54,246 nucleotides of DNA from a virus: positions 1 to 54,246 of the IMG/VR virus record IMGVR_UViG_3300034198_004256; one strand, written 5' to 3'. The first letter of the stretch is position 1, and every line of letters begins with the position of its first letter. The position numbers and the translations under genes were made by a program. Below the pieces are notes generated by a model. The model was not told the origin of the DNA. It was given only the letters and a program-made list of their open reading frames with translations, and did not search any database. This document shows positions 1 to 35,008 of the stretch, one piece after another.

Positions 1-1224
1 CTTGTTAAGAACACCTAAAACATCTTTTACTTTATCTAGTTTTGTGCTGATGTCGTCTAATTGCTTATAGTCGTTTTCACCTAGACCGAGTTCTTTAACT
101 TTCTTTTGACCTTCTGCGTCTTCAGCTTTAAGCTCCTGTTCCTTTTCTGCGGCCTCTTGATTTAATTCTTTTAATCTATCTTTAAGCTCTGCCTGTTCTG
201 TTTCGTCGGCAGATGCCATTTTAGCTTTTGCTACCTCCATTGAACTGTCAACTCTAGCTCTAGATAAAACTTTCTTTAAGTAGTTAGAAACTGCCATACC
301 TTCTGCTTCATCATCGATTTCTTTTGCAGCTTCATCTGCAGCATCCATCTTCTTTTGTATAGTATCTTCAAACTTTTCGATATTATCTTTAAACTTTTCT
401 TTGAATTTAGCTATTTGATCGCCTTTCATACCTTTATCTTTAAGTTGGGCGATCTTTTCATCCAACTCTTCGTTCTTTTTAGCGATCATTTCTTGAGCTT
501 TAGTCTCGGCTTGTGCAGCTTTTACTTTAAGGTCTGTAGCTTTCTTTACAGTCTTTTTGATTTTAGGTCTTCTAAATAAGAAGTCGATAATTATATTAGT
601 CTCTTCAGCAGCCTCTTGTATCATAGCTTCAGTTAATTCAACCTCTTTATTTGATACACCTTCCTCTTCGCCAACTAATTTCTCGCCATCTTTCTCGTCT
701 TCCTTAGCCGGTTCACCCATTTTCATTATCTCGTCTTCAATTTCCTTGAAGCTAGCATCAATATCTTTACCGAAACCTTCGATATCTATTTTAATACCAA
801 ATTCATCATCAGTAGCAGGCATCTCTTCGATTTCAGCTTTGTCTTCTGGACCATGGGCAGCTTTCTTTACTTCAGCAGATTCCTCTACATCATCATCGTC
901 ATCGTCATCATCGTCGTCACCCATGTCTTCTTTATTATCGGTTGATGCCATGTTATCTTCAACTTCCTCTTCATCGTCTTCAGGCATATTCGCCAGCTCA
1001 TCTTCATTCTCTAAGAACTCAGAATAAGATTTGATTGCTTGATATTCTAAAATAGAGACTACTCTCGTGCCTTCAGTATAGGCTTGATACGCTTCAAATA
1101 AAGCAAGATCTACATGTGGGATTGTTTCAGTGTTTTCATCAGAAAAACTTTCAAATACCGGTTTAACACCATTTGACTTACATTTTGCAATATAGGTATC
1201 AAAAACTGGAATAGTAATTTTCAT
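1..1224 (-). CDS. Acidic helical protein, probable prohead core component (3' end outside window)
   Basis: An open frame runs from an ATG at 1224 to the window edge with no stop (408 codons visible), so the gene is truncated here. The N-terminus (MKITIPVFDT) resembles capsid-targeting leaders elsewhere in this window. A PVFE/S site follows at residues 22-26, matching the putative gp21 cleavage motif. Residues 72-145 are strongly acidic, with a run of ten Asp at 103-112. From about 190 on the sequence is rich in Lys, Glu, Ala and Gln and looks helical or coiled-coil. It lies directly downstream of gp23, behind a terminator. An acidic helical protein with a maturation site next to the capsid gene suggests a prohead core or scaffold protein (gp22-like role). 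That is inference; I see no clear homology to T4 gp22. Confidence 0.6.
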   Translation of the reverse strand, partial: MKITIPVFDTYIAKCKSNGVKPVFESFSDENTETIPHVDLALFEAYQAYTEGTRVVSILEYQAIKSYSEFLENEDELANMPEDDEEEVEDNMASTDNKEDMGDDDDDDDDDDVEESAEVKKAAHGPEDKAEIEEMPATDDEFGIKIDIEGFGKDIDASFKEIEDEIMKMGEPAKEDEKDGEKLVGEEEGVSNKEVELTEAMIQEAAEETNIIIDFLFRRPKIKKTVKKATDLKVKAAQAETKAQEMIAKKNEELDEKIAQLKDKGMKGDQIAKFKEKFKDNIEKFEDTIQKKMDAADEAAKEIDDEAEGMAVSNYLKKVLSRARVDSSMEVAKAKMASADETEQAELKDRLKELNQEAAEKEQELKAEDAEGQKKVKELGLGENDYKQLDDISTKLDKVKDVLGVLNK

Positions 1225-1321: not shown

Positions 1322-3082
1322 TTAGATCATTGCATATTGACCGAAGTTAATACCAAGCGTGATGTAGTAGATTTGCGGGAAGAAACCAGCTTCTACTAGA
1401 GCATAACGTGATTTAACTGCGATTTTTGGAGCCATTGTACCTTCTGCGATAGTTTGTACAGACTCTGCCATCAAGTAAGGCATGAATACCAAACCTGGAG
1501 AGTTAGCATCACCTTTTCTACCGATACAGATACGTGTGTCAGTCCATGCCATGTTAGGATCAACATAGATGTTAACACCTGCGATAGAACCGATTGGGTA
1601 AAGTGAACCAGCAGCTTGACTTACTGTGTTGCTAAGTGGGTAAGGTACGAAACCAGCGATGTCTTGTAGAGCTGAAGCAACTTGACCGTTTGTAACAGCG
1701 AAGTTAGCAGCACCACGACGACCGCGGATTGCGATAAGGTTAGCAGCAGCCAAGATCTTACTCATAATCTTACGTTGTAGTGTACCGCTGTTATCACCGC
1801 TGGTAGGAACAACTGAAGTTGTAGTAATAGAGATATTGTTGTTGCTGTATGCACCTTTACCTAGTGCGATAGCAGTTGTTGTAGATGTAGCCGCAATGTA
1901 CAGGTTAAGGTTAGTACCATCGATACTGTTAACTTGTTGAGCGTTTGTAGCACCTAGACGGAACAATCTTTCAAGAATGTTCTTGTTGATAGTTTGAGTC
2001 AATTCATTGATAAGAACTGCTTCAACTTGAGCAACTGCATCGATACCATATTGCTTAAGGTCTTGTACTTGTTCACGAGTTACAGCAGCTGCAACTTGTA
2101 CAGTGCTAGCAGCAACTGACTTGTTGAACAATTGTAGACCCATTAGGTTCTCCTTAGTAGATTCACCTTCTTCTCTCAAATATGGATCGTTAGATGTCAT
2201 ATCACCTTCTAAGAAACCGCGACCTGAGAAACCAGAGATGTGATCTTCTAGAGCCTTAACCAATTCTGGTGTAGCTTGTGTATCAGCGATATCACCTGTG
2301 TTCAAAGCATCACCTGAAGTAGAACTTACAATATACCAAGTATTTGCAGAGCTAAATACATCAGCTAGTGTGTAAGATGATGATGTTAGGTTACCAGTGC
2401 TATAGTTTTGTGGCCAAACAGCAGATGTTTCTTCAGCAGTTTCAACATAGAACATTGCATAACCATCAATACGTGAACGACCAATAAAAGTTAATTTATA
2501 AGGTACGACCTCACCTGAAGATGGAATAGAGTTGTTGTTACTGATGTAGAACACCTCATTAGCTACAGGCTCATAAGTAAAGAAATCATAAAGATCGGCT
2601 TTAATTGTGATAGGAGCTGTACGACCGTCTGCACCACCTAGACCGTTAACCGCTTGAGAAGGATCTGCAAAAGCACCACCTGCATAAGGGAAGTCAAGGT
2701 AAGTTAACATACCGAATGGTCCACCCATTGGTACTACTGGAACAAGGTCTAGACCTACAGTTTGAGCAGCAACTTGCATAGCAAGTGGAAGTAAGCTGAA
2801 TGGCTTATCACCTGAACCTGCGGTTTGTGCTGCGAAGTCAACGTTAAGACCAGGAGCACCAGGTGCAAATACTGGACCCATGCCTGGAACGTTCATACCT
2901 GGATTCATGTGAACGTAGTTGTATACGCTTTCGTTCAACATACCAGAGTCTTCTGCTAGTTTGTGGAAGTGGCAATACTTCGACATCCACTCAAGCTTGT
3001 TGGTATCGTGAATACCAGTTGCGCTTTCGATGATTGGAGCCCATGTAGCTTTAACTTCCGCTTCGTTAATCATTTGTAACAT
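1322..3082 (-). CDS. 23: Major capsid protein (T4 gp23-like)
   Basis: A 586-residue protein forming the head shell, close in size to T4 gp23 (521). It follows portal and protease in T4 order. The charged N-terminal segment ends in MLNE/S (residues 48-52), the position and type of site where T4 gp21 trims gp23; removal would leave a mature chain starting at about Ser52. Right after this comes NPGMNVPGMGP (60-70), which is nearly repeated in the gene at 22642-23082. Later segments (residues 440-586) have the Ala/Gly-rich capsid-fold look seen in T4-like capsids, including an IRGRRGAAN stretch. The start is ATG 3082; an in-frame ATG at 3073 is an alternative. The leader is A-rich without Shine-Dalgarno. 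Identification rests on context, size and the maturation site. Confidence 0.9.
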   Translation of the reverse strand: MLQMINEAEVKATWAPIIESATGIHDTNKLEWMSKYCHFHKLAEDSGMLNESVYNYVHMNPGMNVPGMGPVFAPGAPGLNVDFAAQTAGSGDKPFSLLPLAMQVAAQTVGLDLVPVVPMGGPFGMLTYLDFPYAGGAFADPSQAVNGLGGADGRTAPITIKADLYDFFTYEPVANEVFYISNNNSIPSSGEVVPYKLTFIGRSRIDGYAMFYVETAEETSAVWPQNYSTGNLTSSSYTLADVFSSANTWYIVSSTSGDALNTGDIADTQATPELVKALEDHISGFSGRGFLEGDMTSNDPYLREEGESTKENLMGLQLFNKSVAASTVQVAAAVTREQVQDLKQYGIDAVAQVEAVLINELTQTINKNILERLFRLGATNAQQVNSIDGTNLNLYIAATSTTTAIALGKGAYSNNNISITTTSVVPTSGDNSGTLQRKIMSKILAAANLIAIRGRRGAANFAVTNGQVASALQDIAGFVPYPLSNTVSQAAGSLYPIGSIAGVNIYVDPNMAWTDTRICIGRKGDANSPGLVFMPYLMAESVQTIAEGTMAPKIAVKSRYALVEAGFFPQIYYITLGINFGQYAMI

Positions 3083-3116: not shown

Positions 3117-4736
3117 TTATTTCTTGGTGTATTTTGCAAATCTGCCCTCTAGCTGAGACTTAAAACCTTCTAGATATTCATTATTTACTGCAGATTTCTC
3201 ATCAGCTGCTGCAACCTTAGACTCATTGATACGCTCAAGTTGAACTTGAGAATTTCTCAAATCTCTGGTTGACCAGAAATTAGCAATTAAGTAATCAGTT
3301 GAAAGATTGTAACGAGTAGACTCTACAATAATTTCATTTTTTCTAGATTCAGATAGTTTAGACCATTTCTCTATGTATTCATTAGGCATATGCTTAATGA
3401 AAGCTGGAGTATTATCTACTACCTCGGTTTTTACGCTCTCATTAATTGGTTGTGCGTCACCATTGTTTCCTGCTGTTTGCTTCTGAGCAGATTCGATTAA
3501 AAGTTGTAGTTTTTCAGAAATAGTCTTCTTATAGTCAACATTTTCTGTAACAGTATTATTAGTTGGTGCTGAAGTATTGTTATTAGCAATTTGATCTTCC
3601 TCATTTACACCAGTTAGTCTTTTATTTAGTTTATCTAGATTCTCACCTATATAGTTACTATAACCACCGACAGTTTCTAGATTTTCTTTTAGATAATCAG
3701 CGAACTTCACTACATTGTTTAGACCTTCTGTTAGATAATCATTGTGCTGTGCTAACTTATCCATGTTCTCAGAAAGATAGTTAGAGAACTCAATAATCTT
3801 CTCTGACTTTTCTGCGATTGACTCCGTGTACTGAATACCTTGATCGGCCTTTTCAGCTACATAGTTCATGTACTTCTCCATGTTATTAACACCTTCAACA
3901 ATATGATCGTTGTGTGTAATTACATTATCAAGATTCTCAGCTAAGAAATTAGTATAGCCATGAAGTTCATTTACCTTTTCTGCGATATGCTCAGCATATT
4001 TAACAACACCTTCATTAGCATTGTTATTTGTAATTGATTCTTTAACAGAGCTAAGTTGCTCATGTAATTTAGCCATTTCGGTAGCTAAGTATTGCGTGTA
4101 CTTATTAAAGTCCTCATTCTTGATATAATCAGACATGCTATTTGGAGAATTATTTTCTATTATGTTATATTTATCGTAATCAAAATTGCCAGGTAGCTCA
4201 AAAAGCTGTACGTCACTATCAGCATCTAAACCGAATGACTCGTTTACTCTTTTAAGTTCTGCGTTCTCAAATCCAGGATCTGCTACTAGGTCATAGGTAA
4301 AAAGCTTCTTGATCTTAACGTGACCATTGCTTTCTACTACACCTGCAGCTCTGCTTGAAATATGGATAGGAACACCGGCATCTACTAAAGCTTTAGCTTC
4401 ACGGCCAGCAGAAGTGTTAAGTAGTCTAATACGACCTCTTACTTGCTTACTGTTCTGATCATACTCAAGATTTTCAATAACGTGTGAAGCATTCTTAAGA
4501 GATATGTCAAAGTTTGAAGGATGATCTAACTCACCTAAAAGTTTACCACTTTTAATTTTTTCCTGTAAAGACTTGATCTGAGGTACATATTCACTCTCGT
4601 CATAGATGCGGTTATTCTTGTTCTTAACGCCAATTTCGCCGAAAACACCTTCTAAAACGTATTCGCCACCCTCGTTTTGAAAGGAAAGCTCGTTACTAGA
4701 ACGCTCTACTACTAATAAGTATTGATTATTTGCCAT
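3117..4736 (-). CDS. 21: Prohead maturation protease with long repeat tail (T4 gp21-like)
   Basis: A 539-residue protein, against about 212 in T4. Residues 1-170 are the herpesvirus-assemblin-type serine protease domain of gp21: GELDHPSN with the candidate catalytic His at 72, and HISSRAAG with the candidate Ser at 127/128. Then comes a tail with one isolated repeat (about 213-226), nine uninterrupted 14-residue repeats (247-372), a polar linker and a conserved-looking C-terminal helical region. RVNE/S, PINE/S and RINE/S match the putative cleavage motif, so self-processing is likely. I chose ATG 4736; an in-frame TTG at 4751 would add five residues, but the ATG has the usual A-rich leader. 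No separate gp22 scaffold gene is seen between portal and capsid, so the tail may do that job (inference). Confidence 0.9.
   Translation of the reverse strand: MANNQYLLVVERSSNELSFQNEGGEYVLEGVFGEIGVKNKNNRIYDESEYVPQIKSLQEKIKSGKLLGELDHPSNFDISLKNASHVIENLEYDQNSKQVRGRIRLLNTSAGREAKALVDAGVPIHISSRAAGVVESNGHVKIKKLFTYDLVADPGFENAELKRVNESFGLDADSDVQLFELPGNFDYDKYNIIENNSPNSMSDYIKNEDFNKYTQYLATEMAKLHEQLSSVKESITNNNANEGVVKYAEHIAEKVNELHGYTNFLAENLDNVITHNDHIVEGVNNMEKYMNYVAEKADQGIQYTESIAEKSEKIIEFSNYLSENMDKLAQHNDYLTEGLNNVVKFADYLKENLETVGGYSNYIGENLDKLNKRLTGVNEEDQIANNNTSAPTNNTVTENVDYKKTISEKLQLLIESAQKQTAGNNGDAQPINESVKTEVVDNTPAFIKHMPNEYIEKWSKLSESRKNEIIVESTRYNLSTDYLIANFWSTRDLRNSQVQLERINESKVAAADEKSAVNNEYLEGFKSQLEGRFAKYTKK
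3621..3998 (-). repeat. Nine tandem 14-residue repeats inside gp21
   Basis: Nine consecutive units of exactly 14 residues, of the form [Y/F/H]-x-x-[Y/F/H/S]-[I/L/V]-x-E-[N/K/G]-x-[D/N/E]-x-x-x-x. Examples are YTNFLAENLDNVIT, FSNYLSENMDKLAQ and YSNYIGENLDKLNK. Spacing is perfect at protein level but the DNA copies have diverged. A 14-residue period is two heptads, consistent with a continuous coiled coil. Confidence 0.9.
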
Positions 4737-4758
4737 ATTTATGTTGCGCAATTTTTTG

Positions 4759-4791: not shown

Positions 4792-6390
4792 TTAGATCCC
4801 TAGACCTCCAAGACCGAGATCGTCTCCTCCGCCTTCTTCAGCCTTTTTCTTCTTTTCTGCTTCTTTATCCTCTTTGGTTTTTAGGTTTTGAGCTAGATCG
4901 CTAGGATCCATTTTCAAATACTTTTTAACTAACCAATCTAGATCAAAGTATGGGATGTCATTCATGTTCTCGTCTGTCTCTACTAGATTATCTTTAAGTG
5001 CACTAATAAAGTCTAGGCGCTTTTGCATAATCTCCATTGTCTTTAATTCGTCGAACATATTATCTTTATTGTACTGAACTGAGATCATTGACTTAAGATT
5101 TAAGTCTTTCTGGAGTTCAGGGAATTTAAGACATACTTGAATGTAAAGTGGTTTAACAAGAAGTTCTTGGAAAGATGAACGTAATCTATTGATGAACTTA
5201 CTAAATTTAATCTCTTCTCTGATAAGACCTTCTGCAGTCATTTCGTATGTAGCAGGGCTGTCTTTATCGAAACGGCTGAATGGAATTTTAGAAGCCAACT
5301 TCAATTTATCATGGAAGTATTTAAGTGCGTCAGTATCGCTAAGATCTGGACCGTCATTTGCAAGAGTTTCAATTTCAGGTTGCTCGCCATCTTTAGAAGG
5401 TAACCAGTATTCTTTGTTGAAGCTCATCATTGGTTTACCGTTTACATGCATTGAACCTGAATCAAAATCAAAGTCAACAATCTCACGGTAGTTATTCATT
5501 AGCTGACCAAGTGATTGACGTGCTCTTGTTTTAGATTTACCACCTACTGGGATTAAGAATTTCATTCTATATGAAGCGTTCATTGTAGCCCAGATAACTC
5601 TTGTATGCTCCATGATACGTAGAAGATTGAAGGCTCTGACAAGGCGCTCTACGTAAGATACTCTTTCGTTTGTGGCGACTGATGAATAAGAGAGATAGAT
5701 TACTTGTGAATCGTAAAGCTTTCTTTGTTTAACTGGATCGTTCTTATGTTGATACCAGATTTTCTTATTCGTCTCTTTATCGACAGCAGGCATCAGGGAA
5801 ACTGGATCAATTTCTTTGAAACCAATAATCTCAGACTGATCGTCATTATAGATAATTTCAAATGATAAGTAGCCGTCAATCAACCATTTGCGGAAATAAT
5901 ACCAACCTGATTGGTCTTGAGTAAAACCAAAGTATTGATAGATTTGATTGTATGCTGTAACAATATATTTTTGAACGTCTTCAGATAGACCTAAATGTGA
6001 TGCATCTGGATACGCAAAATAGTTTTTACTATCATATACAACGGCCTCGTCGCATAATGTATCTAGAATATCTTCGATTTCATCTTGAGTAGCGAACTTT
6101 CTAAGCTCTATTCTTTTCTGCGGATATTGTTGTATGAAAAAACTGATACTCTTTTTAAGAGTTGTATCAGCCATTGATAATGCTGCGAATGGGTACCAGT
6201 AGTCTTCATTTTCTAGACCGTACGGGTTAATCATGGTATAACCGAAACGATCCTCTGTAACACCAATTGCTTGCGAGTTACGGATAATCATATCGTCATA
6301 CTTCATCCCTAAACTACTAAGATTCTGTAACGATTTTGAAATCGAGAATCTTCTACTAAAGGGTCCAAATCTGTCTAGAAATCCTGCCAT
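4792..6390 (-). CDS. 20: Portal protein (T4 gp20-like)
   Basis: A 532-residue protein (T4 gp20: 524) that forms the dodecameric vertex ring for DNA packaging and nucleates prohead assembly. The T4 pattern is followed throughout: an N-terminal CDEAVVYDSKN region; a WYYFRKWLIDGYLSFEIIY segment; IDPVSLMPAVDKET; a central LVRAFNLLRIMEHTRVIW helix; NKEYWLPSKDGEQPEIETLAND (matching the T4 'EDYWLQRRDGK...VDTLPG' region); and a C-terminal EEIKFSKFINRLRSSFQELLVKPL stretch. The tail is Lys/Glu-rich and ends Gly-rich. It heads the portal-protease-capsid series in T4 order. The leader is A-rich without Shine-Dalgarno. Confidence 0.93.
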   Translation of the reverse strand: MAGFLDRFGPFSRRFSISKSLQNLSSLGMKYDDMIIRNSQAIGVTEDRFGYTMINPYGLENEDYWYPFAALSMADTTLKKSISFFIQQYPQKRIELRKFATQDEIEDILDTLCDEAVVYDSKNYFAYPDASHLGLSEDVQKYIVTAYNQIYQYFGFTQDQSGWYYFRKWLIDGYLSFEIIYNDDQSEIIGFKEIDPVSLMPAVDKETNKKIWYQHKNDPVKQRKLYDSQVIYLSYSSVATNERVSYVERLVRAFNLLRIMEHTRVIWATMNASYRMKFLIPVGGKSKTRARQSLGQLMNNYREIVDFDFDSGSMHVNGKPMMSFNKEYWLPSKDGEQPEIETLANDGPDLSDTDALKYFHDKLKLASKIPFSRFDKDSPATYEMTAEGLIREEIKFSKFINRLRSSFQELLVKPLYIQVCLKFPELQKDLNLKSMISVQYNKDNMFDELKTMEIMQKRLDFISALKDNLVETDENMNDIPYFDLDWLVKKYLKMDPSDLAQNLKTKEDKEAEKKKKAEEGGGDDLGLGGLGI

Positions 6391-9687: not shown

Positions 9688-9707
9688 GTTAAACCTATAA
9701 TTTTTAT

Positions 9708-9713: not shown

Positions 9714-9720
9714 TTGCGTG

Positions 9721-10512
9721 TTACGAGTTAGTTCTATTGAATGCATCATCCCCATCTTGTATGATTAAACCCTTATCTTTCTCGATGTTTGGTACAACAT
9801 ATACCTCGTTTGGTATGTTAAACATTCTATTGCCATTGAACTGCTCATCACTCTTTTCAAAGGATGGGATAAATGAAAGCATCTCAATTGAGAAAGTAAT
9901 AGTATAAATCTTTTCATCTGTAAAGCCAAATTGCATTGGTCTTTCTAATGCTTGATCTTCCGGGAATTTGTAATATGAAGCTAATCTAAATGTACCTTCC
10001 TGTGATGCACCGACATCCACATTAAATTGATTATTCTTATAGAGTGTTTTGAGTAATGATTCTGCTATCTTAAATTGATCTAAATTACTATCAACCTTGA
10101 TTGTGCAATCGAAGTTTATAGTCACAGGTATCATTTGAAATTGTGAGATAAATGATCTTATGGTTTGATCGGGCATTTCTTTAACATAAGTACCTCTAAC
10201 ATACTTATTTATAAGTGATGCAGAGTCTACATTTAAGCTCGTCATGTTAACGATGCCTATGGGTAGTTTATTATAGTTACCCATTGCCCTTTGATTATCA
10301 GGGTCTAGTAAAACATCTTGCAGAAAGTTATCATATAAAAAAGCTTCGCTACCAGTCACTGCATAGTGAAAAGGTATTTTAACTAACTCTCTATTATCTT
10401 CGGTTCTTTGTATATGGTAAAAAACCTTATTATTCAAGTCAGCTAATAAACCAACTATGATATGTCGGATGACACTGTCGTCTTTGTTAAATTTCAGATT
10501 GTACGTAGCCAT
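9721..10512 (-). CDS. 15: Tail sheath stabiliser / tail terminator (T4 gp15-like)
   Basis: A 263-residue protein (T4 gp15: 272). The T4 pattern is visible: an N-terminal helix, then 'K-x-P-[F/I]-x-Y-A' (LVKIPFHYAVTG), LPIGIVNMTSLNVD, MIPVTINFDCTIKVDSNLDQFKIAESLLKTLY (T4 'PIKMIYELSIFTRYEDDMFQIVEQILPYF'), NQFNVDVG, and a final EKIYTITFSIEMLSFIPS strand. gp15 caps the tail tube and sheath and joins the tail to the head neck. Its place beside head completion genes fits. A TATATA lies only seven bases before the ATG. Assigned by pattern and length rather than strong identity. Confidence 0.65.
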   Translation of the reverse strand: MATYNLKFNKDDSVIRHIIVGLLADLNNKVFYHIQRTEDNRELVKIPFHYAVTGSEAFLYDNFLQDVLLDPDNQRAMGNYNKLPIGIVNMTSLNVDSASLINKYVRGTYVKEMPDQTIRSFISQFQMIPVTINFDCTIKVDSNLDQFKIAESLLKTLYKNNQFNVDVGASQEGTFRLASYYKFPEDQALERPMQFGFTDEKIYTITFSIEMLSFIPSFEKSDEQFNGNRMFNIPNEVYVVPNIEKDKGLIIQDGDDAFNRTNS

Positions 10513-18829: not shown

Positions 18830-20686
18830 TTATTTTATTTCACATGCACCTCCTGCACAGGCTACTTCACCTTTAAGATCTGTATTGTCTTCTATTTCAA
18901 TGATTTTAGATAGATCAACCTTTGTTAAAGATTTCATCATTTCATTGTATTTCTCTTCAGTACAGTCTTCGAAAGGAGCTTGTATGTAAGTGCCTCCATC
19001 ATATGGTAATACAGAAAGTCCGTTGTAACAGTTTCTATTTTCCCACATCCATTCACCAACTCCGTCCCATTCGTCTTGCTTGATACTTACAGTAGCTGAG
19101 ATATTATGGGTATTCATTCCGCCTCTATGGCCAGGCTTAATCCAGTTATTGTAGAACCATTTAACTCTTTCTAATAGATCGTATGCTGATTCGTGTCTAA
19201 TGATAGAACCTGCCGGAGCTTTCTGTGGAATAGAGATAACAGCCGTATCATGAGGTCTGAAGTACTCATCTTCTACTAATTCAGGATGGTAAATAGAAAG
19301 ATATTGATAGATTGCTTCATTTTTACCTACTCTGATTCGGCGCATATAGAAATCATTATGCCATGCATGTATACCGGATGAGCAGCCTAATGTCAAAGAA
19401 CTTGTACCTGCTGGTTTGATAGTTGTAACACGTGCAGCTTTATTGATACCAAGTAGATCTGCTACTCTAGCGTTTTCAGTTTTGGCGCAATCTGCGGCCT
19501 CTTTTAAAGAGAACTTCTGAGCTTTACCACTACCGATGCCAGTTAAACCGATACCTACAAGTGCGTCTTTCTCAGTAGTACGTTGCCATATTGGACGTAA
19601 ATAATGGAAGTCTGTGTAACCGGCTTGTAATGTACCAATAAATGTAGCAGCTGTTACACGTGCATTAAGATCTTCTTGTGATTCAACATCTGATACGTTT
19701 ACTTCAGTTAGGTTACAGAACTGATAAGGACGTAGTGCAATTTCACAACAAGGATTAGTACCCCAATCTTTATCATTAGTAAAGTAGATGCCTGGTTCGC
19801 CTGAGCCTGAAGCCTCAATTTTCTTCCATAGATCTAGGAAAAACTCTTTAGTAACTTTGTTTCTAACAAGAACTGCAGAGTTATTAGCACGACCTCTTTG
19901 TGAGTTTAATTCCCACCAGCTACCAGACTTACATGAAATCATATCTTCGTCATCAGCACTAAAAAGGCTAATAAGAGCTGCTCTACGAATACCTCCTGCA
20001 AGTACTGCATCTGCAATATGGCATATAATATCATGTACCTCAATTGTTGTAAGCTTATCATTGTTTTGCTTTTGTGATAAAATACCTTCGATTTTAATTA
20101 AGCACTCTTTAAGAGGTTGCGGGCCTGGGGCTTTACCACCTGATGTGATAAGTTTAGCACCCTTTGGTCGAATATCTCTAAAGTCAAATTCAATAGTTGA
20201 GCCACCGTGAAAATAAGACTTCATCAATACCTTGATTGAATCAGCCCAACCCTCGATGCTGTCTGCAACTAGAAATCTTCTTTTACGATTTGGATTAGGT
20301 CTGTTGATTTCAGGTAGATCTTCAACGTGATGTTTCTGAACACTGAAACCTACACCAGTTCCGCCTAGCAATAGGAACATCACCTCACCAAATGAGCGCC
20401 AGTCATCTACAGGTAGATACGCACAGTTGTAAATTCTATTTGGTGAAATTTCAATTGGCTTACCGCCGAATTGTAAAGATCTCATTGACGGTAGAACCAT
20501 TTTACCGTATACAGCTTTGTACTTTTCTCTGATCTCATCTTCAAGTACTGGGTACTTCTTGATGTGCATCTCCATGTTACGAGTTACTAACTCTTCCCAT
20601 GTTTCTCTTCTCTCAAACTCAGGTAGATACCTTGAGTATTTCATGTGCACCGTAATGTCACTGAGGATCTCGTTGGATAATTCCAT
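18830..20686 (-). CDS. nrdJ: Adenosylcobalamin-dependent (class II) ribonucleotide reductase
   Basis: A 618-residue single-chain reductase making deoxynucleotides for phage replication. It resembles the Lactobacillus-type ribonucleoside-triphosphate reductase. Cys88 (YNCAYLP) and Cys324 (QFCNL) are the substrate-site pair. NPCCE (311-315) gives the Asn, thiyl Cys313 and Glu315. LLGGTGVGFSVQ follows the family pattern. A C-terminal Cys610/Cys615 pair (CAGGAC) shuttles electrons. No small subunit is needed or present. It is shorter than the 739-residue Lactobacillus enzyme, so an allosteric part may be reduced. Unlike T4's oxygen-dependent class I enzyme it works without oxygen but needs B12 from the host. 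It lies between the two polymerase genes. Confidence 0.93.
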   Translation of the reverse strand: MELSNEILSDITVHMKYSRYLPEFERRETWEELVTRNMEMHIKKYPVLEDEIREKYKAVYGKMVLPSMRSLQFGGKPIEISPNRIYNCAYLPVDDWRSFGEVMFLLLGGTGVGFSVQKHHVEDLPEINRPNPNRKRRFLVADSIEGWADSIKVLMKSYFHGGSTIEFDFRDIRPKGAKLITSGGKAPGPQPLKECLIKIEGILSQKQNNDKLTTIEVHDIICHIADAVLAGGIRRAALISLFSADDEDMISCKSGSWWELNSQRGRANNSAVLVRNKVTKEFFLDLWKKIEASGSGEPGIYFTNDKDWGTNPCCEIALRPYQFCNLTEVNVSDVESQEDLNARVTAATFIGTLQAGYTDFHYLRPIWQRTTEKDALVGIGLTGIGSGKAQKFSLKEAADCAKTENARVADLLGINKAARVTTIKPAGTSSLTLGCSSGIHAWHNDFYMRRIRVGKNEAIYQYLSIYHPELVEDEYFRPHDTAVISIPQKAPAGSIIRHESAYDLLERVKWFYNNWIKPGHRGGMNTHNISATVSIKQDEWDGVGEWMWENRNCYNGLSVLPYDGGTYIQAPFEDCTEEKYNEMMKSLTKVDLSKIIEIEDNTDLKGEVACAGGACEIK

Positions 20687-22641: not shown

Positions 22642-23082
22642 TTATTTGTCAGATTGTTTAAGAAACTCGTCGAACTTGTTTGGTGTAAATGAAATTGCGG
22701 TTACGCCTTTTTTCTTACCCATCTTCATAAGTTTCTTATCCTTTGTGGAATATGGAGCTGGAACATCACCAGAACCTACTGTGCCATATGGACCTACTTC
22801 TGGTACAACAATTGGACCCATACCACCAACGTTCATACCTGGGTTTGGATGTACTCTGGCATAGTCTTCGTTTAGAAAGCTTTCAAATGTAGGTATAAAG
22901 TTCTCTTTAGTTTCAGGTAAACCCTTATGTTTAGTTGAAGCAAAATCTTTAAGTTGCTTCTTAGTCATACCCTGTGCCAACTGAGCGACTTTATCACTAA
23001 CCTCATCTGGATCCTTCTTACCTGTCTTAACAGCATAAGCTTGACCCATTAAACGCTGTTGTGCTTTACTTTGTGCTGGCAT
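22642..23082 (-). CDS. DUF3008-like protein fused to a copy of the gp23 N-terminal arm
   Basis: A 146-residue protein in three parts. Residues 1-55 (MPAQSKAQQRLMGQAYAVKT... MTKKQLKDFASTKHKGLP) match the DUF3008 family, small basic proteins of unknown function. Residues 61-72 (NFIPTFESFLNE) resemble the capsid-targeting leaders of neighbouring genes plus a maturation site. Residues 79-90 (PNPGMNVGGMGP) with a later GSGDVP nearly copy the segment right after the cleavage site in gp23. The C-terminus is Lys-rich. It overlaps the next gene by one base (TAATG). It may be a minor or internal capsid protein that docks through the gp23 arm motif (inference). Confidence 0.7.
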   Translation of the reverse strand: MPAQSKAQQRLMGQAYAVKTGKKDPDEVSDKVAQLAQGMTKKQLKDFASTKHKGLPETKENFIPTFESFLNEDYARVHPNPGMNVGGMGPIVVPEVGPYGTVGSGDVPAPYSTKDKKLMKMGKKKGVTAISFTPNKFDEFLKQSDK

Positions 23083-23528
23083 TAGTTATCTTCATTTAAT
23101 TTACTTTGCTTAACGGTATATGTCTTACCATTAAACTCGAAAGTCTTTTCACCTTTCTCCCTGGCCTCTTTAAGTGCTAAAAGAAATGCATTGCCTTCAC
23201 TGATCATAGTACCATCTTTAACTCTTTCCCAGATCTTTAAACCGTAAGAAGATAATTTTACACCTTCTTTAGTTACATTGAATAAATGGCTATTTCTAGT
23301 AGACCATCTTCCATGTGCACCTGTTTCTGAAAGTATTCTTTGGAACTCTTCTTCTGTGATAACACCATCTTTGATTGAGCCTATTACTACATTTCTAACT
23401 GCAGCTTTTTCATTAGCAAATCTAGCAGGATAATTATCTGTATAACCTCTCTTATAGATTACTTTACCCTCGTTAACTGGGTTAAAATTTTCATTTATGA
23501 ATTGTTCAAACGTTTGATAATTTTTCAT
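23082..23528 (-). CDS. Small basic protein with capsid-targeting-like leader
   Basis: A 148-residue protein not recognised by family. The N-terminus MKNYQTFEQFINENFNPVNE/GK combines a T4-like capsid-targeting pattern (T4 internal proteins start MKTYQEFIAE) with a PVNE/G site at residue 20/21. The remainder is basic (YKRGYTDNYPARFANEKAAVRN) and might be winged-helix-like around residues 45-110. It ends KLNEDN. Probably packaged in the head and trimmed by gp21 (inference). It is adjacent to other proteins with the same leader. Confidence 0.65.
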   Translation of the reverse strand: MKNYQTFEQFINENFNPVNEGKVIYKRGYTDNYPARFANEKAAVRNVVIGSIKDGVITEEEFQRILSETGAHGRWSTRNSHLFNVTKEGVKLSSYGLKIWERVKDGTMISEGNAFLLALKEAREKGEKTFEFNGKTYTVKQSKLNEDN

Positions 23529-23554
23529 GGTTTATTTATTTCTTTTAGTATTTA

Positions 23555-26500
23555 TCATCTTTTAGAAACCGCTCCTGATGTAAGTCCTATACCCGATGAG
23601 TAAGCATTACTAGTATCACCTTTAGTCTCAAAGTGATAGTCTGCTGTACCTAGATCTTTGGCAATGAATATCATTTCATTCTTTTTAATTTCCATTATTA
23701 AGTATGCTTGAACAGTATCTACTGAAAGTCTAACTAGGTTAGAAATAGGTCCAGAATAGTTTTGATTAAGGTACTTAACAACCATTGTAGATAAAGGGTA
23801 CATTACACAAGAGAAGACGACTTGATCGCTTAAGCTATCCCATTCTTCGTATAGTGATTCAGGTGTTAGAGATTTTGAAGAGAAGTTATCACAAGCTTTC
23901 CAGAGTTCGGTGTAGAACTTTATAAACTTGGTTTTATTATTATGAAGGGTATACAAAAACTCTATTACTGCGCTTTTTGTTACACCTGTATTTGAATCTA
24001 ATTTAGACTCCTGTATAAAGTAATACCAACCTGTACCTTTATTATAAAGGAATTTATTCGACATGTCTGTATAAAAGTCAAGTGAACTTAATTCAACAAT
24101 AGGTAATAAGATATTATCATATACGTATTGCTCATCTTTAGTTGGGACAATTACACCTGCATCTACTTCAATTTTAAGGCGATCTACAAATCCACTTGCT
24201 GAAGCTGTGCCACCTTTTGTACCTGCCTTTGATGAAATGTTAGCACCATCGAAGTAAAAATCAACAAGCTTGGCATTTGATGCAGATGGGTAAACGGTAC
24301 CAGACGTATTGTCTTTAACTACGTTAAACAAATGGATCGCACCTAGAATCTCACCGAAATCGTTTGCAAAGTTACTGATAGAAATCTGATCAATTCCAGC
24401 AGTTATTTTAGTATCGATTGAATATGAGTGTTTTTGATTACCTGATATACATGCCTTCATAAATGCATTTATGTCATCATAAGTATCAGCATTTGATGTA
24501 TTATTCTTAATGGTTTCCATTAAACCTATAGCAAACGCTTTATACTCAGCAGGTATTTTAAGTTTGTTGATTGCACTTTTTGATGCTCCGATTAAATCTT
24601 CAACCTTAGGGTATGAAGCACCAGGTTTTGCTAACTCTAATTTATCTGGTGTTGTATCTTTTTTACCTATTACTGCTGCTGATCCACCTCCTTTCTTTTC
24701 AGGTGTTTTATCTACAATAACTATTGCATCACCTCTTTTGTAATCTACACCGCCTACTGTAACACCTTTCTTGAACTTTATATGATATGCCCAGAATGTG
24801 CCTGAGTATTTAGGTTTTTGATCACCAGGTGCAAAACCTTCTATGATGTATTCCTTTTCTGATACACCTATAGTAGTTAACATTGCTTTGATATTTTCAA
24901 CTGCAACTTCAGTTCCTCCAAATATAGCTTTAAGTACTTCACCCTCTTCTGCGCTTACTTTAACGCCGGTTAATTTTGTACTTTTAACCCATGCATCGTA
25001 TATAGTACCCCATTCATCGCGCTCTTTTTTAGGAGCAGAACCTTCAAAAATAGGTTCATTGTTTTCTCCGATGAAATCATTAAAAGTTAAAAGATTAAAT
25101 AATTCATTTTCTTTAACAGCCTGTATAATGGTTTTAAGCTCCTCATACATCTTGTGCATGCCTTTCGGAGTCATCTTCTTGAAAGTCGCCTCATCATCTA
25201 TCTTTAAGGCCTCTCTGACCTTGGTAGCACTAACATCCTCTTCACCTCTTTTAATTTCAAATGCATCTAGTTCAGGTAGAGCATTTAACTCTTCTTTGTA
25301 CTTGTCGATTTGATATTTGTATGCTTTAAGTCTATCTGTACCTGCACCCCATAGAACTGGCTCGTATGCAGGTCTAAGGGCATTGTATATTGTATCGATA
25401 CCTGCTGTACCGATTACTGCAGCTCCTTCAACCATTTTGTTATGATCTTGTATAGCACCAATCATTGCTAATTGGGTATCTTCATCAAACGGATTCTTAG
25501 CAGGATCTGCTTTAGTACCTCTTACAACAAGTATAAATGTTGGTAAGCCGTTTGCTTTATACAATTGCTCTACAACTTTCATATGACCTTCAGTAAACGG
25601 CTGGAATCTACCTGCTAATATGTTTACTTTTTTTGTACCTCTTTCGGTTGTATTAAGTTTAAGTGCCTCGTTAATATCTACAATGCTTTCAAATATAGAA
25701 GATACATTTTCAATCTGAGATCTCTTTAAGTAATTATTGAAATCTAATACCTGATTCTCCTCTGGCATAAGTTCTACCTTACCTTGGATTTTTGTAATGA
25801 TATCGTTTAGAACATCTACTATTTGCTTTGTCAATATAGGAGTTGTGTTCTTTCTAAATTTTCTAAATGAACTGATGATGATTTTGAAAAGATCGTTAAG
25901 CTTACTATTTTTAAGTATCTCTCTGGTTCTTTCATTTGGTATAGTAGCCAGGTTAATATCGAACTCAGGTTTCTTTGCAAAATCTGGTGTTTCAAAATCT
26001 ACACCGATGTATTTATGTCCGTTTTTCTGGATATAGTCATTAAATATAATCGACATGAGCTCGATGTATCTTTCATCTGGAGCTTCACCATTAAGCTGTA
26101 TTGAACTTATATCGTATACCTCCATAAATTCAATAATGTCTAACATCGCAATCTGATACATGTCATTAGCCATTCTATTAACAGGCGTTGTAACATTCAT
26201 AGAATGCTGATGAAATATAGGGTCTATAAGACGTGCTGTGTATACCTCACTTTCACCTGGTGTGATAAACTTAAACACAATACCTTCGATCGGTTTATCA
26301 AGATCATTCATTAACATACTGGTTCTTAAACCAGAATTTAGAATGTTTATCATGAATCTTGTAAATGATTGTGTCTGGAATTGCTTCTGTAATTCGCTTT
26401 CAGGTGTACTTAAGTATGAAGTAATTCTATCCTTCTGTAGTTGATCTAGAAAGCCATTGAAAATAATCGGCGGCTTTTCTACATCTAGTTTTTTTGACCA

Positions 26501-26923
26501 GTCATTCAAAATCCTAGGATCTGATATAGTCTTTAAGACTCTTCCGTTACCATTGGTTATTTGAATATCTGTAAGTACTAGATTATTATGCGGTGTTCTA
26601 TCATACACCATATTTACAGGAGAGTTAGAAGGGAAGTATTGGAAGCCAAATGACCAGTTGTCAGGTATCTCTGCAATGACTTCCGCTCCTAATGTTTCAA
26701 AATGTGAAATAGCCTTTTCATAGAATATCATCATAGTCCTGTCAATAAAATTAACAGGTTTACCATCTTTCTTACAGAAGGTTATTGAATTATCCATATT
26801 TTTAAGTATGGATAACCGTGAACCATCTAGCTGCTCACTAATTATTACATATTTAGTAAACAGATTCTGTATAAAGTTTTGACCTTTGTCTTTAAAGATA
26901 TCCTTAAGATTGATAAGAGCCAT
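23555..26923 (-). CDS. Multidomain protein: degenerate ligase-like, NMN adenylyltransferase-like and C-terminal unknown domains
   Basis: A 1,122-residue protein. Residues 1-250 look like the covalent nucleotidyltransferase (RNA/DNA ligase) fold. Motif I reads EQLDGSR, with Gln31 where the lysine nucleophile should be; motif IV is EGIVFKF (213-219). After a helical region come SIFE/S (409-413) and DINE/A (416-420). Residues 432-600 are a NadM/NMNAT-type cytidylyltransferase-fold domain: GRFQPFTEGH (438-447), NPFDEDTQLAMI and VSATKVREAL (564-573). Then LLTFNDFIGENNEPIFE/G (611-628) resembles the leader and site of the neighbouring ligase-like protein. The rest is unknown, with E858, D888 and SSK (897-899) spaced a little like a PD-(D/E)xK nuclease. 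It overlaps the upstream gene by one base. A head-packaged polyprotein is my inference. Confidence 0.75.
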   Translation of the reverse strand: MALINLKDIFKDKGQNFIQNLFTKYVIISEQLDGSRLSILKNMDNSITFCKKDGKPVNFIDRTMMIFYEKAISHFETLGAEVIAEIPDNWSFGFQYFPSNSPVNMVYDRTPHNNLVLTDIQITNGNGRVLKTISDPRILNDWSKKLDVEKPPIIFNGFLDQLQKDRITSYLSTPESELQKQFQTQSFTRFMINILNSGLRTSMLMNDLDKPIEGIVFKFITPGESEVYTARLIDPIFHQHSMNVTTPVNRMANDMYQIAMLDIIEFMEVYDISSIQLNGEAPDERYIELMSIIFNDYIQKNGHKYIGVDFETPDFAKKPEFDINLATIPNERTREILKNSKLNDLFKIIISSFRKFRKNTTPILTKQIVDVLNDIITKIQGKVELMPEENQVLDFNNYLKRSQIENVSSIFESIVDINEALKLNTTERGTKKVNILAGRFQPFTEGHMKVVEQLYKANGLPTFILVVRGTKADPAKNPFDEDTQLAMIGAIQDHNKMVEGAAVIGTAGIDTIYNALRPAYEPVLWGAGTDRLKAYKYQIDKYKEELNALPELDAFEIKRGEEDVSATKVREALKIDDEATFKKMTPKGMHKMYEELKTIIQAVKENELFNLLTFNDFIGENNEPIFEGSAPKKERDEWGTIYDAWVKSTKLTGVKVSAEEGEVLKAIFGGTEVAVENIKAMLTTIGVSEKEYIIEGFAPGDQKPKYSGTFWAYHIKFKKGVTVGGVDYKRGDAIVIVDKTPEKKGGGSAAVIGKKDTTPDKLELAKPGASYPKVEDLIGASKSAINKLKIPAEYKAFAIGLMETIKNNTSNADTYDDINAFMKACISGNQKHSYSIDTKITAGIDQISISNFANDFGEILGAIHLFNVVKDNTSGTVYPSASNAKLVDFYFDGANISSKAGTKGGTASASGFVDRLKIEVDAGVIVPTKDEQYVYDNILLPIVELSSLDFYTDMSNKFLYNKGTGWYYFIQESKLDSNTGVTKSAVIEFLYTLHNNKTKFIKFYTELWKACDNFSSKSLTPESLYEEWDSLSDQVVFSCVMYPLSTMVVKYLNQNYSGPISNLVRLSVDTVQAYLIMEIKKNEMIFIAKDLGTADYHFETKGDTSNAYSSGIGLTSGAVSKR

Positions 26924-28188
26924 TATCTTCCGTATTTAATAATTCCCATTAGTTGGTTAATTGCAGCGAACGTACCAGTTAATTTGTACATACCGCCTTT
27001 GTATTTGAAAACAAGACCTTCAGTAGGTATGATAGACTCTATACCACCGATACGTGCAAGTCTAGCCAATTCTGATTCAACTTTCTCAATCTGCTTAGTG
27101 TCACCATTCAATTTAATGGCTTCAGCTTCTTTTCTAATTGTATCGTGTAGTCTTTGCTTCTCTGCATCAGGTGAAAGAGCTAAAAAGTTAGAAGCGTTCT
27201 TAAGAACAACTGATCCTAATTCTAAGAATAGATCTTCGAACGGTCTGATATTCTCTTTATACTTCTTTTTAACGTCTTCTTTATCGTACTTCTTGATAGC
27301 TTCCATCTCTTCAGGTGATATCATTTTAGCAAGAGCTCTAAGATCTAATGACTTCTTATCATCATAAGCCCATCTCAACACTAAACCATCTTTAATAGCC
27401 TGTTCAAGCTTAGGGAATGATTTGTCTATTTCTTTTCTCCACCACATTTCATGGTATTTAGAAACAGGATCACCCGCTGCAAGCTTAAACTCACTTTGTA
27501 GTTTATCAACCTTTTGCATGAAGTAACCTTTCTTAGCATCGAAGTCCGCTTCTTTAGCAACTTTAAGAGCTTGTGGTGGAATGATTTCAAATACATCACC
27601 GATATGGTTGTTAGCATCCTTAATCATTTTTGCAAGATCTTTTGCTGAAGCATTATCTTCACCTACAATGTTACCTTGACCATCAGTCTTCTTAATACCG
27701 TGGAATTGGATAACATCTCTATCGTAATTGATAACGTTTGAGTTCTTTGAATAGATAAGCTCCATATTCATGAAGTTCATGCCATTTTCAAAGTATGCAT
27801 CTTGTGTCTTTTTAGATAAACCCTCTAAACCTTTAGCTAAATCTTTAGCAGCAAGTGTAAATGTCTCTCTAACCATCTCTGAAGGATGATCTGCAAACAT
27901 AGTGTTAACACCATCAAGGCTTATTGGATCTTTAAGCTGACCCTTATTACGAGCAAACATTGCTTTACCGTCCTTAACAGTGGCAAATATATTTTGACCA
28001 TCGGTCTTTTCAGTTGGATCCTCCTCGAAGTTCAACTCGCCTGTAAGACCGGCTTCAATCATTTTTCTAAAATCATCAAACGTAAGATCAGCATCATCAA
28101 AGGGGTGCATCATATGACCTGCTGCACCGCCTTCGAAAATGGGTTGATACATCTCGTTAACGAATGACTCGAACGATAGTAATTTCAT
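26923..28188 (-). CDS. RNA/DNA ligase-like nucleotidyltransferase with capsid-targeting-like leader
   Basis: A 421-residue protein. The leader MKLLSFESFVNEMYQPIFE/GG fits the capsid-targeting pattern and putative cleavage site at 19/20. The rest carries ligase-superfamily motifs: motif I EKTDGQN with Lys61 as the expected AMP-accepting residue, NMELIYS (motif III, Glu143), EGLVFK (motif IV, 390-395) and YKLTG with Lys402 (motif V). Motif IV and V lie at the extreme C-terminus because of a long helical insertion (about 170-370). Whether it joins RNA, DNA or another substrate cannot be read. It is followed by a paralogue-like domain lacking the lysine in the next gene. Likely a packaged nucleic-acid repair enzyme (inference). 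Confidence 0.75.
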   Translation of the reverse strand: MKLLSFESFVNEMYQPIFEGGAAGHMMHPFDDADLTFDDFRKMIEAGLTGELNFEEDPTEKTDGQNIFATVKDGKAMFARNKGQLKDPISLDGVNTMFADHPSEMVRETFTLAAKDLAKGLEGLSKKTQDAYFENGMNFMNMELIYSKNSNVINYDRDVIQFHGIKKTDGQGNIVGEDNASAKDLAKMIKDANNHIGDVFEIIPPQALKVAKEADFDAKKGYFMQKVDKLQSEFKLAAGDPVSKYHEMWWRKEIDKSFPKLEQAIKDGLVLRWAYDDKKSLDLRALAKMISPEEMEAIKKYDKEDVKKKYKENIRPFEDLFLELGSVVLKNASNFLALSPDAEKQRLHDTIRKEAEAIKLNGDTKQIEKVESELARLARIGGIESIIPTEGLVFKYKGGMYKLTGTFAAINQLMGIIKYGR

Positions 28189-28192
28189 TGTA

Positions 28193-28615
28193 TTATCCTT
28201 TATTTAACATTCCGATTAAAGAACCGTAATCGTCTCCTTTCTTTTTGGCAAGAAGACCATCTGCAACTTCTTTTGCTTTAGCCTCATCGAAATCATCTGG
28301 ATGCTGTTGCTTAAGGATAGTATTTACGTACTCTCTAAACTCATCATCTGACTTAATATCAGCTTCATTTAATTCAGTACCCTTAGAAGCGCCTGCTAAT
28401 TCATTCATAGCATCTGCGCTAAATAATTTCTCTAAAAATGCACCTTTATTCTCTTCAGAAATTTCAGATGGGTTAGTAACATCAAATTCCCTAAGAAGGT
28501 TTTCAAATGCCATTGACATTGATTTTTGTGTTTGTGTTTTTTGCTCAGTCATCTTAGCCTCTGATTGAGATTTAACGTGCTGAGAAAAACTTTCAAATGA
28601 TAGTAAATTTTTCAT
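28193..28615 (-). CDS. Small acidic protein with capsid-targeting-like leader
   Basis: A 140-residue protein of unknown family. MKNLLSFESFSQH closely parallels the leader of the adjacent ligase-like protein (MKLLSFESFVNE). The rest is charged and helical, with an ELNE/A site at residues 81-85 and an Asp/Glu/Lys-rich second half. It may be an internal head or core protein processed by gp21. Starts and ends are unambiguous and it lies four bases from the next gene. Confidence 0.65.
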   Translation of the reverse strand: MKNLLSFESFSQHVKSQSEAKMTEQKTQTQKSMSMAFENLLREFDVTNPSEISEENKGAFLEKLFSADAMNELAGASKGTELNEADIKSDDEFREYVNTILKQQHPDDFDEAKAKEVADGLLAKKKGDDYGSLIGMLNKG

Positions 28616-28629
28616 TTTTCTATTTTTGT

Positions 28630-28914
28630 TTATTTGGGGTTTTCATCTTTATTATCTAAACGGCTTTGCATATAACTATGTACCGTTTCAATATAATCTG
28701 CTGCTGTTGTAATCTTACTTTGAACCCATGCTTCTAGATCTTTTACGTTACCTATAAGATTGATTAACTCGCTTGCATGGTCGATGGTTGTCTTTAATTG
28801 ACCGATTGCCATCTCTTGCTCTTCAGACATATCACCTTTAGCCATATCCTTTGGAATTAAGCTTAAGTCTGCTGTATCTTCTTTTATAAAATCTGAGTAA
28901 TTCTTAACAGGCAT
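28630..28914 (-). CDS. Small helical protein, leader weakly capsid-targeting-like
   Basis: A 94-residue protein, not recognised. MPVKNYSDFIKED partly fits the K-x-Y-x-x-F-I-x-E pattern of T4 internal head proteins. The rest is predicted helical (AIGQLKTTIDHASELINLIGNVKDLEAWVQSKITTAADYIETVHSYM). It is first in the block of putative head-packaged proteins; a TATATA lies 15 bases before its ATG, directly against the uvsW stop. Confidence 0.6.
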   Translation of the reverse strand: MPVKNYSDFIKEDTADLSLIPKDMAKGDMSEEQEMAIGQLKTTIDHASELINLIGNVKDLEAWVQSKITTAADYIETVHSYMQSRLDNKDENPK

Positions 28915-34083: not shown

Positions 34084-34446
34084 TTAAATACGAGAACCAA
34101 GTGCAGAACCTAATGCAGCACCGACTAAGCGACTTGTAAGCATATCATAAAGAATACCAGGGCCTACACCTAAGACTTTAGCTATAATTTTACCTACAGA
34201 TGAACCTAAAGCAAAACCTGCAAGACCACCTAAAATAGAACCGATAAAACCTTCATTCATAATATCCTGCTGAAGATCTTCCATAGTTTTACCCTTACTT
34301 AGATAATCTGATACAAAGCGATCTATGGCTTCATCAATTTGACGTTCTTGATCCGGCGTTAATTCAGTTACATAACTTTCATTTAAGGCTAAAATTTCCT
34401 CACTGAAGTTAATCTTCTCTACAATAAATTCATTATAAGTCTTCAT
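34084..34446 (-). CDS. Glycine-zipper protein with capsid-targeting-like leader
   Basis: A 120-residue protein. Its first ten residues, MKTYNEFIVE, differ only slightly from the MKTYQEFIAE leader of T4 internal head proteins. ALNE/S (20-24) and IMNE/G (62-66) fit the putative gp21 cleavage motif. After the second site the remaining 55 residues are Gly/Ala/Leu-rich with GxxxG-type spacing (GSILGGLAGFALGSSVGK, then LVGAALGSALGS), typical of glycine-zipper membrane-inserting segments. I infer a packaged protein whose trimmed C-terminal peptide could enter a membrane during DNA delivery. Confidence 0.7.
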   Translation of the reverse strand: MKTYNEFIVEKINFSEEILALNESYVTELTPDQERQIDEAIDRFVSDYLSKGKTMEDLQQDIMNEGFIGSILGGLAGFALGSSVGKIIAKVLGVGPGILYDMLTSRLVGAALGSALGSRI

Positions 34447-34456: not shown

Positions 34457-35008
34457 TTAGTCTAATTCTACTCTGACTTCAAATTCATTATAAGCTATCG
34501 AAAGATCGAAAGTCTTAAATTCAGCGACGTTACTAGCAAAACTCATTTGTAAATCACTGATACTTTTAATCAGAGGCTTTTTAATTGTTGCTGTAACTAA
34601 ACCATTACCCTCTGAATCTAAAATCCTTAAATTCATATCAGGTACAAACGGAGCCTCGGTACTAAAGTTATAGTAATAGGTTAAAGTATCTAATAATATC
34701 CAATAGTTAATGTAACCATCAACAAGTTGGAATGTTATAGTCATCTCCTTTTGAAATAACTCTTGCACCGGTACACTACTTCTATAAAGATAATTTCTAC
34801 CAGGGTATTGAGCCTGTTGTATAGGATCGTAACCCATTCCAGGTAGGTTAACTGATTGTATAGTGTAGTTTATAAAATCTATAGGTTCCTCAATTAGATT
34901 ACCAGGTATTCTGTTTAGGTATTGCTTATACTTATCACCAACTTCCCTCGGGATAAATGTTCTTGGGAAACCAAACTGGAATAAATTATCTCTAGCGTTA
35001 AGTAGCAT
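34457..35008 (-). CDS. Tail tube or tube-initiator type protein (gp19/gp54-fold-like)
   Basis: A 183-residue protein. The second half has the order seen at the end of T4 gp54 and in tube proteins: KEMTITFQLVDGYINYWILLDTLTYYY, then PDMNLRILDSEGNGLVTATIKKPLIKSISDLQMSF, then FKTFDLSIAYNEFEV (T4 gp54 '...LVISFRMDSEACNYRAMQDWV...ITTFDVTFAY'). It may be the tube initiator or another tube-fold baseplate protein. It precedes large tail genes in the map and is overlapped by one base with the 755-residue gene. Confidence 0.55.
   Translation of the reverse strand: MLLNARDNLFQFGFPRTFIPREVGDKYKQYLNRIPGNLIEEPIDFINYTIQSVNLPGMGYDPIQQAQYPGRNYLYRSSVPVQELFQKEMTITFQLVDGYINYWILLDTLTYYYNFSTEAPFVPDMNLRILDSEGNGLVTATIKKPLIKSISDLQMSFASNVAEFKTFDLSIAYNEFEVRVELD

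Follow-up and report, generated by a model that had tools for sequence, protein, structure and literature searches.

Several unrelated genes of a T4-like phage begin with nearly the same short peptide. The phage is represented by the IMG/VR virus record IMGVR_UViG_3300034198_004256 (the window, i.e., the whole 54,246-nucleotide stretch of DNA that was analysed), and the repeated N-terminal peptide is regarded here, at a probability of about 0.9, as a capsid-targeting sequence (CTS) of the T4 type, which would act through core binding, cleavage, packing, and ejection. By this mechanism the prohead core would form on the portal and be bound by the leader, contact being made through an aromatic residue (T4 position 4) and the Phe at position 7, and the leader would bring the attached protein into the prohead. 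Cleavage by the gp21-type protease, after the Glu with which the leader ends or at another [ILV]xE/[AGS] site downstream (a slash marks the putative cut), would then release the mature cargo, to be packed with the DNA and ejected together with it. Core binding, cleavage, retention, and injection are steps that we infer for the window phage, while the observations below concern the presence of leaders and sites, their statistics and conservation, their spread over unrelated proteins, the match to T4 residues, and agreement with the virion proteome of a relative. Recovery of the T4 leaders by a motif built without T4, correspondence with the residues important in T4, the bias at the residue following the cut (P1'), and the virion list of cyanophage S-CREM2 together point to the capsid-targeting system of T4 in a much enlarged form.

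The genes of gp23, gp21 (an S77 protease), and the portal protein all lie within 1322–6390 of the window. The nearest record in the annotated collection is LR756500, a 462-kb uncultured phage with 56% identical gp23, and the window was therefore assigned to a huge-phage clade. The gene of the 421-residue protein from its cluster is present in 80 further IMG/VR loci. The whole contigs of relatives were pieced together, and 1,877 genes on nine huge-phage contigs (designated G with a number, except for LR accessions; G001 is the closest relative) provided the N-termini for motif discovery.

The Leader Motif in Huge T4-Like Phages

Unsupervised expectation maximization on N-termini, padded so that leaders beginning at Met are scored, converged from random starts on KxIKxFEEFLNE. 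Scores were 427 for N-termini versus 191–223 for interior peptides in G005, and 475 versus 191–220 in LR756500. After removal of three housekeeping families, whose matches (clusters 8–10; window 35008–37275) were excluded as false positives, the refined motif K-x-[ILV]-K-x-[FY]-E-[EQD]-F-[ILV]-N-E was found in 153 genes, which form about 90 clusters dissimilar behind the leader, the number of clusters varying with the BLAST cut-off. The genes scoring at least 10 bits, compared with the number expected from interior peptides, were 49 versus 1.7 in LR756500, 31 versus 0.7 in G005, 17 versus 0.5 in G006, 15 versus 0.2 in G003, and 14 versus 0.3 in both G001 and G002; the largest tagged set in one genome has 47 genes. 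Tagged genes sit in runs of up to eight neighbours. The first-pass annotation of the window, which had been made from the sequence alone, had thus noted a real pattern, and one that is larger than it described. Its suggestion of a packaged protein set unlike that of T4 is borne out on the sequence level, the predicted set being also much larger (some 90 unrelated cargo clusters).

Correspondence with the T4 Capsid-Targeting Sequence

In T4 the mutagenesis of MKTYQEFIAE has indicated that residues 4 and 7 mainly direct targeting and residues 8 and 10 processing, and the leader of internal protein (IP) III alone suffices to package a foreign protein (PMC9026906). The leader described here is likewise N-terminal, about 10–12 residues long, and built on a [FY]xxF[ILV]xE core; its columns [FY], F, [ILV], and E correspond to Y4, F7, I8, and E10 of the T4 CTS, and three of these four are among the most informative of the motif. 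With T4 data kept out of the training set, gp61.1, ipIII, ipII, and ipI ranked first to fourth among 262 T4 genes, and gp22 ranked sixth.

The leader end carries a putative [ILV]xE/[AGS] cleavage site. Ala, Gly, or Ser directly follows the leader Glu in 36 of 63 clusters versus a background of 15% (p=2e-14), this position being outside the motif, and [LIVM]xE[AGS] within residues 2–44 is found in 63% of tagged versus 11.5% of untagged genes. Both the gp21-type (S77) protease and the gp23 capsid protein are encoded in the genome. The single protease specificity proposed in the first-pass annotation is thus consistent with the S77/gp21 gene, with the enrichment of E/[AGS] outside the motif, and with conserved [ILV]xE/G at domain borders, where the putative cleavage sites of the 421-, 120-, and 148-residue families are placed. 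In the 421-residue family the leader core is present in 61/61 distinct sequences and [ILV]xE/GG in 60/61; alignment of relatives, which had been recommended as a check, found the core also in 42 of 48 distinct orthologues of the 120-residue protein, 47 of 53 of the 140-residue protein, and 50 of 56 of the 148-residue protein. In most members of the last family the site immediately precedes a KRxY domain, independent of its distance from the leader. Taken together, de novo motif recovery, the T4 hold-out, the residues essential in T4, and an independent virion proteome all agree with the original proposal of a capsid-targeting leader.

Agreement with Cyanophage Virion Proteomes

The virion proteome of the cultured cyanophage S-CREM2, a distant relative, was determined by mass spectrometry (MS) and is given in Table 3 of PMC10665884, whose authors left open possible contamination for such enzymes. 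When 219 annotated S-CREM2 proteins were scored with the huge-phage motif, four reached at least 10 bits; all four are in the tabulated virion list, and none of the 167 other proteins passed (Fisher p=0.003). Post hoc, the core within residues 2–40 was observed in 6 of 27 non-structural proteins of this list versus 2 of 182 others (p=6e-5). One of these six is the Cas9-like nuclease of S-CREM2 (7704–10313), which has RFASFMAE/A near the N-terminus and ends with KTFRDFLN. In S-SM1 virions the cytidylyltransferase T4-GC190 was detected by MS (PMC3037559); its N-terminus is MKKFSAFLNE/A, and the P-SSM2 homologue ranks second in the P-SSM2 genome.

Tagged Genes of the Window

For the window itself a held-out motif, trained without the window and G001, was applied. 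Five genes, those at 23082, 26923, 34084, 28193, and 28630, scored at least 10 bits versus 0.11 after shuffling (100 trials with shuffled N-termini, maximum of 2 matches per trial), which excludes chance as the source of the leader, and these are exactly the five leader genes of the first-pass annotation. All peptides quoted there were found on the minus strand, as were the sites PIFE/G, PVNE/G, ALNE/S, and PVFE/S and those of gp23 and gp21. The leaders said to begin four of six adjacent genes are real, but the count was too low, since the core occurs in 6/6, being internal in two. Coordinates are collected in Table 1.

Table 1: Leader-bearing, capsid, and related features of the window, and tagged S-CREM2 proteins.
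Feature	Position or phage	Strand	Leader, core, or N-arm	Sites and remarks
Acidic gene behind gp23, candidate scaffold, runs off the window end	1..1224	minus	weak leader	PVFE/S 1147-1161
Major capsid protein gp23	1322..3082	minus	mature N-arm VHMNPGMNVPGMGPVFAP 2861-2914	MLNE/S 2927-2941
gp21-type prohead protease (S77) with fused coiled-coil scaffold-like region	3117..4751	minus		RVNE/S, PINE/S, RINE/S
Portal protein gp20	4792..6390	minus		in relatives, tagged small acidic gene between portal and gp21
DUF3008 protein	22642..23082	minus	internal core TFESFLNE 22867-22890 (residue 65); C-terminal core NKFDEFLKQ 22654-22680	
148-residue tagged protein	23082..23528	minus	MKNYQTFEQFINE 23490-23528; 24.2 bits	PVNE/G 23466-23480
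1122-residue fusion	23555..26923	minus	internal LLTFNDFIGE 25064-25093	PIFE/GS 25037-25054
421-residue RNA-ligase-like nucleotidyltransferase	26923..28188	minus	MKLLSFESFVNE 28153-28188	PIFE/GG 28126-28143; KTDG motif
140-residue tagged protein	28193..28615	minus	MKNLLSFESF 28586-28615	ELNE/A 28361-28378
94-residue protein, weaker leader	28630..28914	minus	MPVKNYSDFIKE 28879-28914; 10.6 bits	
120-residue tagged protein	34084..34446	minus	MKTYNEFIVE 34417-34446; 16.5 bits	ALNE/S 34375-34389; IMNE/G 34249-34263
Cytidylyltransferase ORF154	S-CREM2		MKNFSSFLTE/A	at least 10 bits, virion list
SAM hydrolase ORF6	S-CREM2		MKDFDSFLEE	at least 10 bits, virion list
APH-like kinase ORF14	S-CREM2		MKRFDAFLTE	at least 10 bits, virion list
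ORF136	S-CREM2		MQTFSMFFSE	at least 10 bits, virion list

In the 140-residue protein the described leader is present, but the terminal Glu is lacking, and the likely site is instead ELNE/A at residue 84; its residues 89–140 are a small module that recurs in other tagged proteins. The 94-residue gene is restricted to close relatives. For the 120-residue protein both the leader and ALNE/S were as first described, and a third, more conserved site, IMNE/G, precedes a 55-residue glycine-zipper, membrane-like domain (34087–34251), with xNE/G directly before GxxGS conserved in the family. A cut at IMNE/G would free this conserved domain, which could act on the host membrane at ejection. The acidic gene at 1–1224, which had also been listed as leader-bearing, though weakly, scores −8 bits and does not qualify in the window; the genes in its place behind gp23 score 13–17 bits in G010, G002, and G003.

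Predicted Cargo Proteins

Tagged proteins with recognised domains are mostly enzymes. The 421-residue protein has invariant K61, D63, G64, E143, E390, and K402, which are the motifs of covalent nucleotidyltransferases (KxDG). A sequence search of its family against the PDB found no credible match, and the structure was therefore predicted: RNA ligases head the PDB fold matches with weak E-values, while residues 1–24 are disordered in the model (predicted local distance difference test, pLDDT, below 50) and the fold starts behind the site. Motifs and the weakly matched predicted fold thus point to the ATP-dependent RNA ligase family.

The 1122-residue protein contains an N-terminal RNA-ligase-2-like domain, whose fold matches T4 Rnl2, and at about 430–600 an NMN-adenylyltransferase-like domain with the GRFQPxxxGH motif and a NadM/CoaD-like fold; its C-terminal part is a second cargo domain, which in most relatives is a separate gene. 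The catalytic Lys of motif I was not found in its ligase domain: the window has EQLDG there, close relatives have EQ[MLI]DG, and most relatives read EK. Because of the Gln in place of Lys this domain may be inactive in the window and close relatives.

Elsewhere the tagged proteins include a zeta-toxin-like P-loop kinase, GNAT acetyltransferases, ATP-grasp enzymes, leucine-rich-repeat proteins, and a 2H phosphoesterase that shares HxT...PHMT with T4 57B/Acb1. Tagged phosphoesterases similar to Acb1 (57B, the T4 protein against the cyclic-oligonucleotide-based anti-phage signalling system, CBASS), possibly delivered with the genome, were noted in G005 (198662–199201) and G003 (96068–96625), and further ones in G006 (155292–155858) and G001 (121180–121935). 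The window cargo also includes small proteins of unassigned fold. PADLOC gave no convincing defence match, and no Pfam, PHROG, or PADLOC match pointed to IP homology or type IV restriction inhibition in the cargo. Brought in along with the DNA, such cargo could serve RNA repair, NAD supply, and counter-defence, a role in keeping with the known T4 IPs (PMC12373910).

Internal and C-Terminal Tags and the Copy of the Capsid N-Arm

Most relatives of the ligase/cytidylyltransferase are unfused proteins of 612–626 residues that end with FLTFEQFINKI or similar, often after E/S. In the window and in the loci L003 and L004 fusion with a second cargo gene downstream has made this C-terminal tag internal; in the 1122-residue protein it is the core LLTFNDFIGENNEPIFE/G at residue 611. 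DUF3008 proteins also finish in a core. A genome-wide search for C-terminal tags gave no convincing general excess, the tag being clear only in the ligase/cytidylyltransferase and DUF3008 families.

The DUF3008 protein, moreover, repeats within its sequence the mature N-arm of the gp23 from the same phage (22801–22854). It is the best proteome match to the gp23 N-arm in seven of eight phages and weak in G006; own gp23 is the best fit for 6 of 8 such mimics, and true pairs do better than permuted ones (p=1e-4). Similarly, T4 gp61.1 (T4 18966–19130) copies the T4 gp23 N-arm with a score of 82 versus 28.9 ± 4.2 after shuffling. This resemblance suggests that the DUF3008 protein may bind capsid sites normally occupied by the gp23 arm.

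More tentatively, and with somewhat less than even odds, the tag could serve throughout the T4 superfamily as an address code, used at N-terminal, internal, and C-terminal positions. Huge phages would load dozens of enzymes by it (RNA ligases, NMN adenylyltransferase, Acb1-like phosphoesterase, acetyltransferases, kinases) and deliver them with the DNA for counter-defence and repair, the DUF3008 protein being, like gp61.1, a dedicated capsid-wall adapter by virtue of the copied N-arm.

Weighing of the Alternatives

The leader may also be a prohead-core address while the majority of its bearers, instead of being retained and injected, serve in the core or scaffold and are then degraded and lost from the head, like T4 gp67, gp68, and gp22. 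A tag is found on the small gene that separates portal and gp21 in G003, G005, G006, and G010 (the gp67/gp68 slot of T4) and on the acidic genes behind gp23, which agrees with this, as do several sites within one protein in the 120-residue family; indeed, some tagged genes, namely this small gene and the acidic scaffold-like ones, may encode prohead core proteins degraded later. As a general explanation it is nevertheless unlikely, because enzymes dominate the tagged proteins with recognised domains and tagged enzymes are reported in S-CREM2 and S-SM1 virions.

Far less probable is a leader that sends proteins elsewhere, to a replication site, a membrane, or the host polymerase, and resembles that of T4 by convergence. 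Many tagged genes are small and of unassigned function, which would suit such targeting, but the critical residues are the same as in the T4 CTS, the P1' residues are of the protease type, the virion lists agree, and replication proteins and most tail proteins are without the tag. Still less credit is given to recent duplication of one gene family: some LR756500 clusters are paralogues, e.g., leucine-rich-repeat proteins, but about 90 clusters are dissimilar behind the leader, and in an alignment of 81 representatives only the leader yields a consensus, MKxIKxFExFxNE. Finally, an artefact of composition in the Lys/Glu/Phe-rich N-termini of AT-rich genes, conceivable since these N-termini are Lys-rich, is refuted by shuffled N-termini, which give 0.11–0.21 matches per genome set, and motifs from interior peptides are far weaker.

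A number of points weigh against capsid targeting as the general explanation. Some leaders are not followed by Ala, Gly, or Ser, and proteins with such leaders do not have a second site significantly more often (p=0.54); the E-G-G of the 421-residue family also occurs in one leaderless relative and may therefore belong to the enzyme itself. Most non-structural S-CREM2 virion proteins are without the leader. When motif scores were compared by rank for the complete set of S-CREM2 virion proteins, the result was not significant (p=0.59) because most of them are tail and baseplate proteins. The Tenacibaculum phages PTm1 and pT24, which have related gp23, show no clear excess, with 0 genes each at 10 bits or above. 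Besides, gene starts were taken from the open reading frame calls of this analysis, and S-CREM2, which provided the virion list, is a distant relative.

Comparison with Known Systems

Earlier work has described the CTS of T4 as well as ip genes of T-even phages with only the leader in common (PMC9026906, PMC12373910). The proposed capsid targeting in the huge phages resembles that of IPI–IPIII (MKTYQEFIAE) in length, in the core, in Glu at the cleavage position, in unrelated cargo behind a single leader, and in the S77/gp21 protease and gp23 of the same genome, but up to 47 genes per genome are tagged, many of them enzymes, versus a handful in T4, and a longer K-x-[ILV]-K extension, downstream second sites, and C-terminal tags in two families are added. 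It is the same address as in T4 with much larger and different freight. The T-even ip locus encodes internal proteins that vary between phages, some of which are injected and inhibit GmrSD restriction (PMC12373910), and is similar in its small genes with fast-changing cargo; it differs from the runs of up to eight consecutive tagged genes at several loci seen here and from their RNA-repair, acetyltransferase, kinase, and 2H phosphoesterase cargo. In phiKZ-type giants such as SPN3US many head proteins are also processed by the prohead protease, but the propeptides are mostly longer than 100 residues, unlike the T4-like tag of about 12 (PMC5694885).

The virion enzymes of cyanophages (NMNAT/cytidylyltransferase, SAM hydrolase, kinases) share the cytidylyltransferase family with the 1122-residue protein of the window, although the tag is N-terminal in S-CREM2 and S-SM1 and C-terminal or internal in the window family; a packaging signal is not proposed in the accessible parts of these reports (PMC10665884, PMC9602691, PMC3037559). 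A literature search, most subscription journals excluded, found neither the tag in huge T4-like phages or at C-termini nor its use as a predictor of cyanophage virion enzymes, nor a copy of the gp23 arm.

Few large phages can be cultured, and little has therefore been learned about which proteins they carry and inject. With a tag from which head cargo is predicted, the question becomes testable from genomes alone, so that the proteins which such phages carry, and probably inject, can be listed from the genome. The tag could also explain why cyanophage virions contain enzymes hitherto unaccounted for, and it yields ranked lists of candidates for injected anti-defence proteins. Protein-delivery heads of the T4 style gain new leaders and cargo from it.

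Further Leader-Like Sequences

Several genes of pT24 begin with a leader variant that closes with EYLTE or EYVTE and may be a form of the tag specific to that lineage. In LR756508 a second repeated leader, MKLTERKLRKIIREEL... or MKLKDLLFE..., is found on 33 genes versus 0.26 expected; a Pfam search of these proteins gave zero matches, and several share an [LI]xRG motif reminiscent of ADP-ribosyltransferases. In P-SSM2 and KVP40, under other labels or none in the annotation examined, additional likely CTS genes were seen, e.g., those beginning with MKSFKQFLEE, MKSLSQFIIE, and MNDEKIISFDEYLNE.

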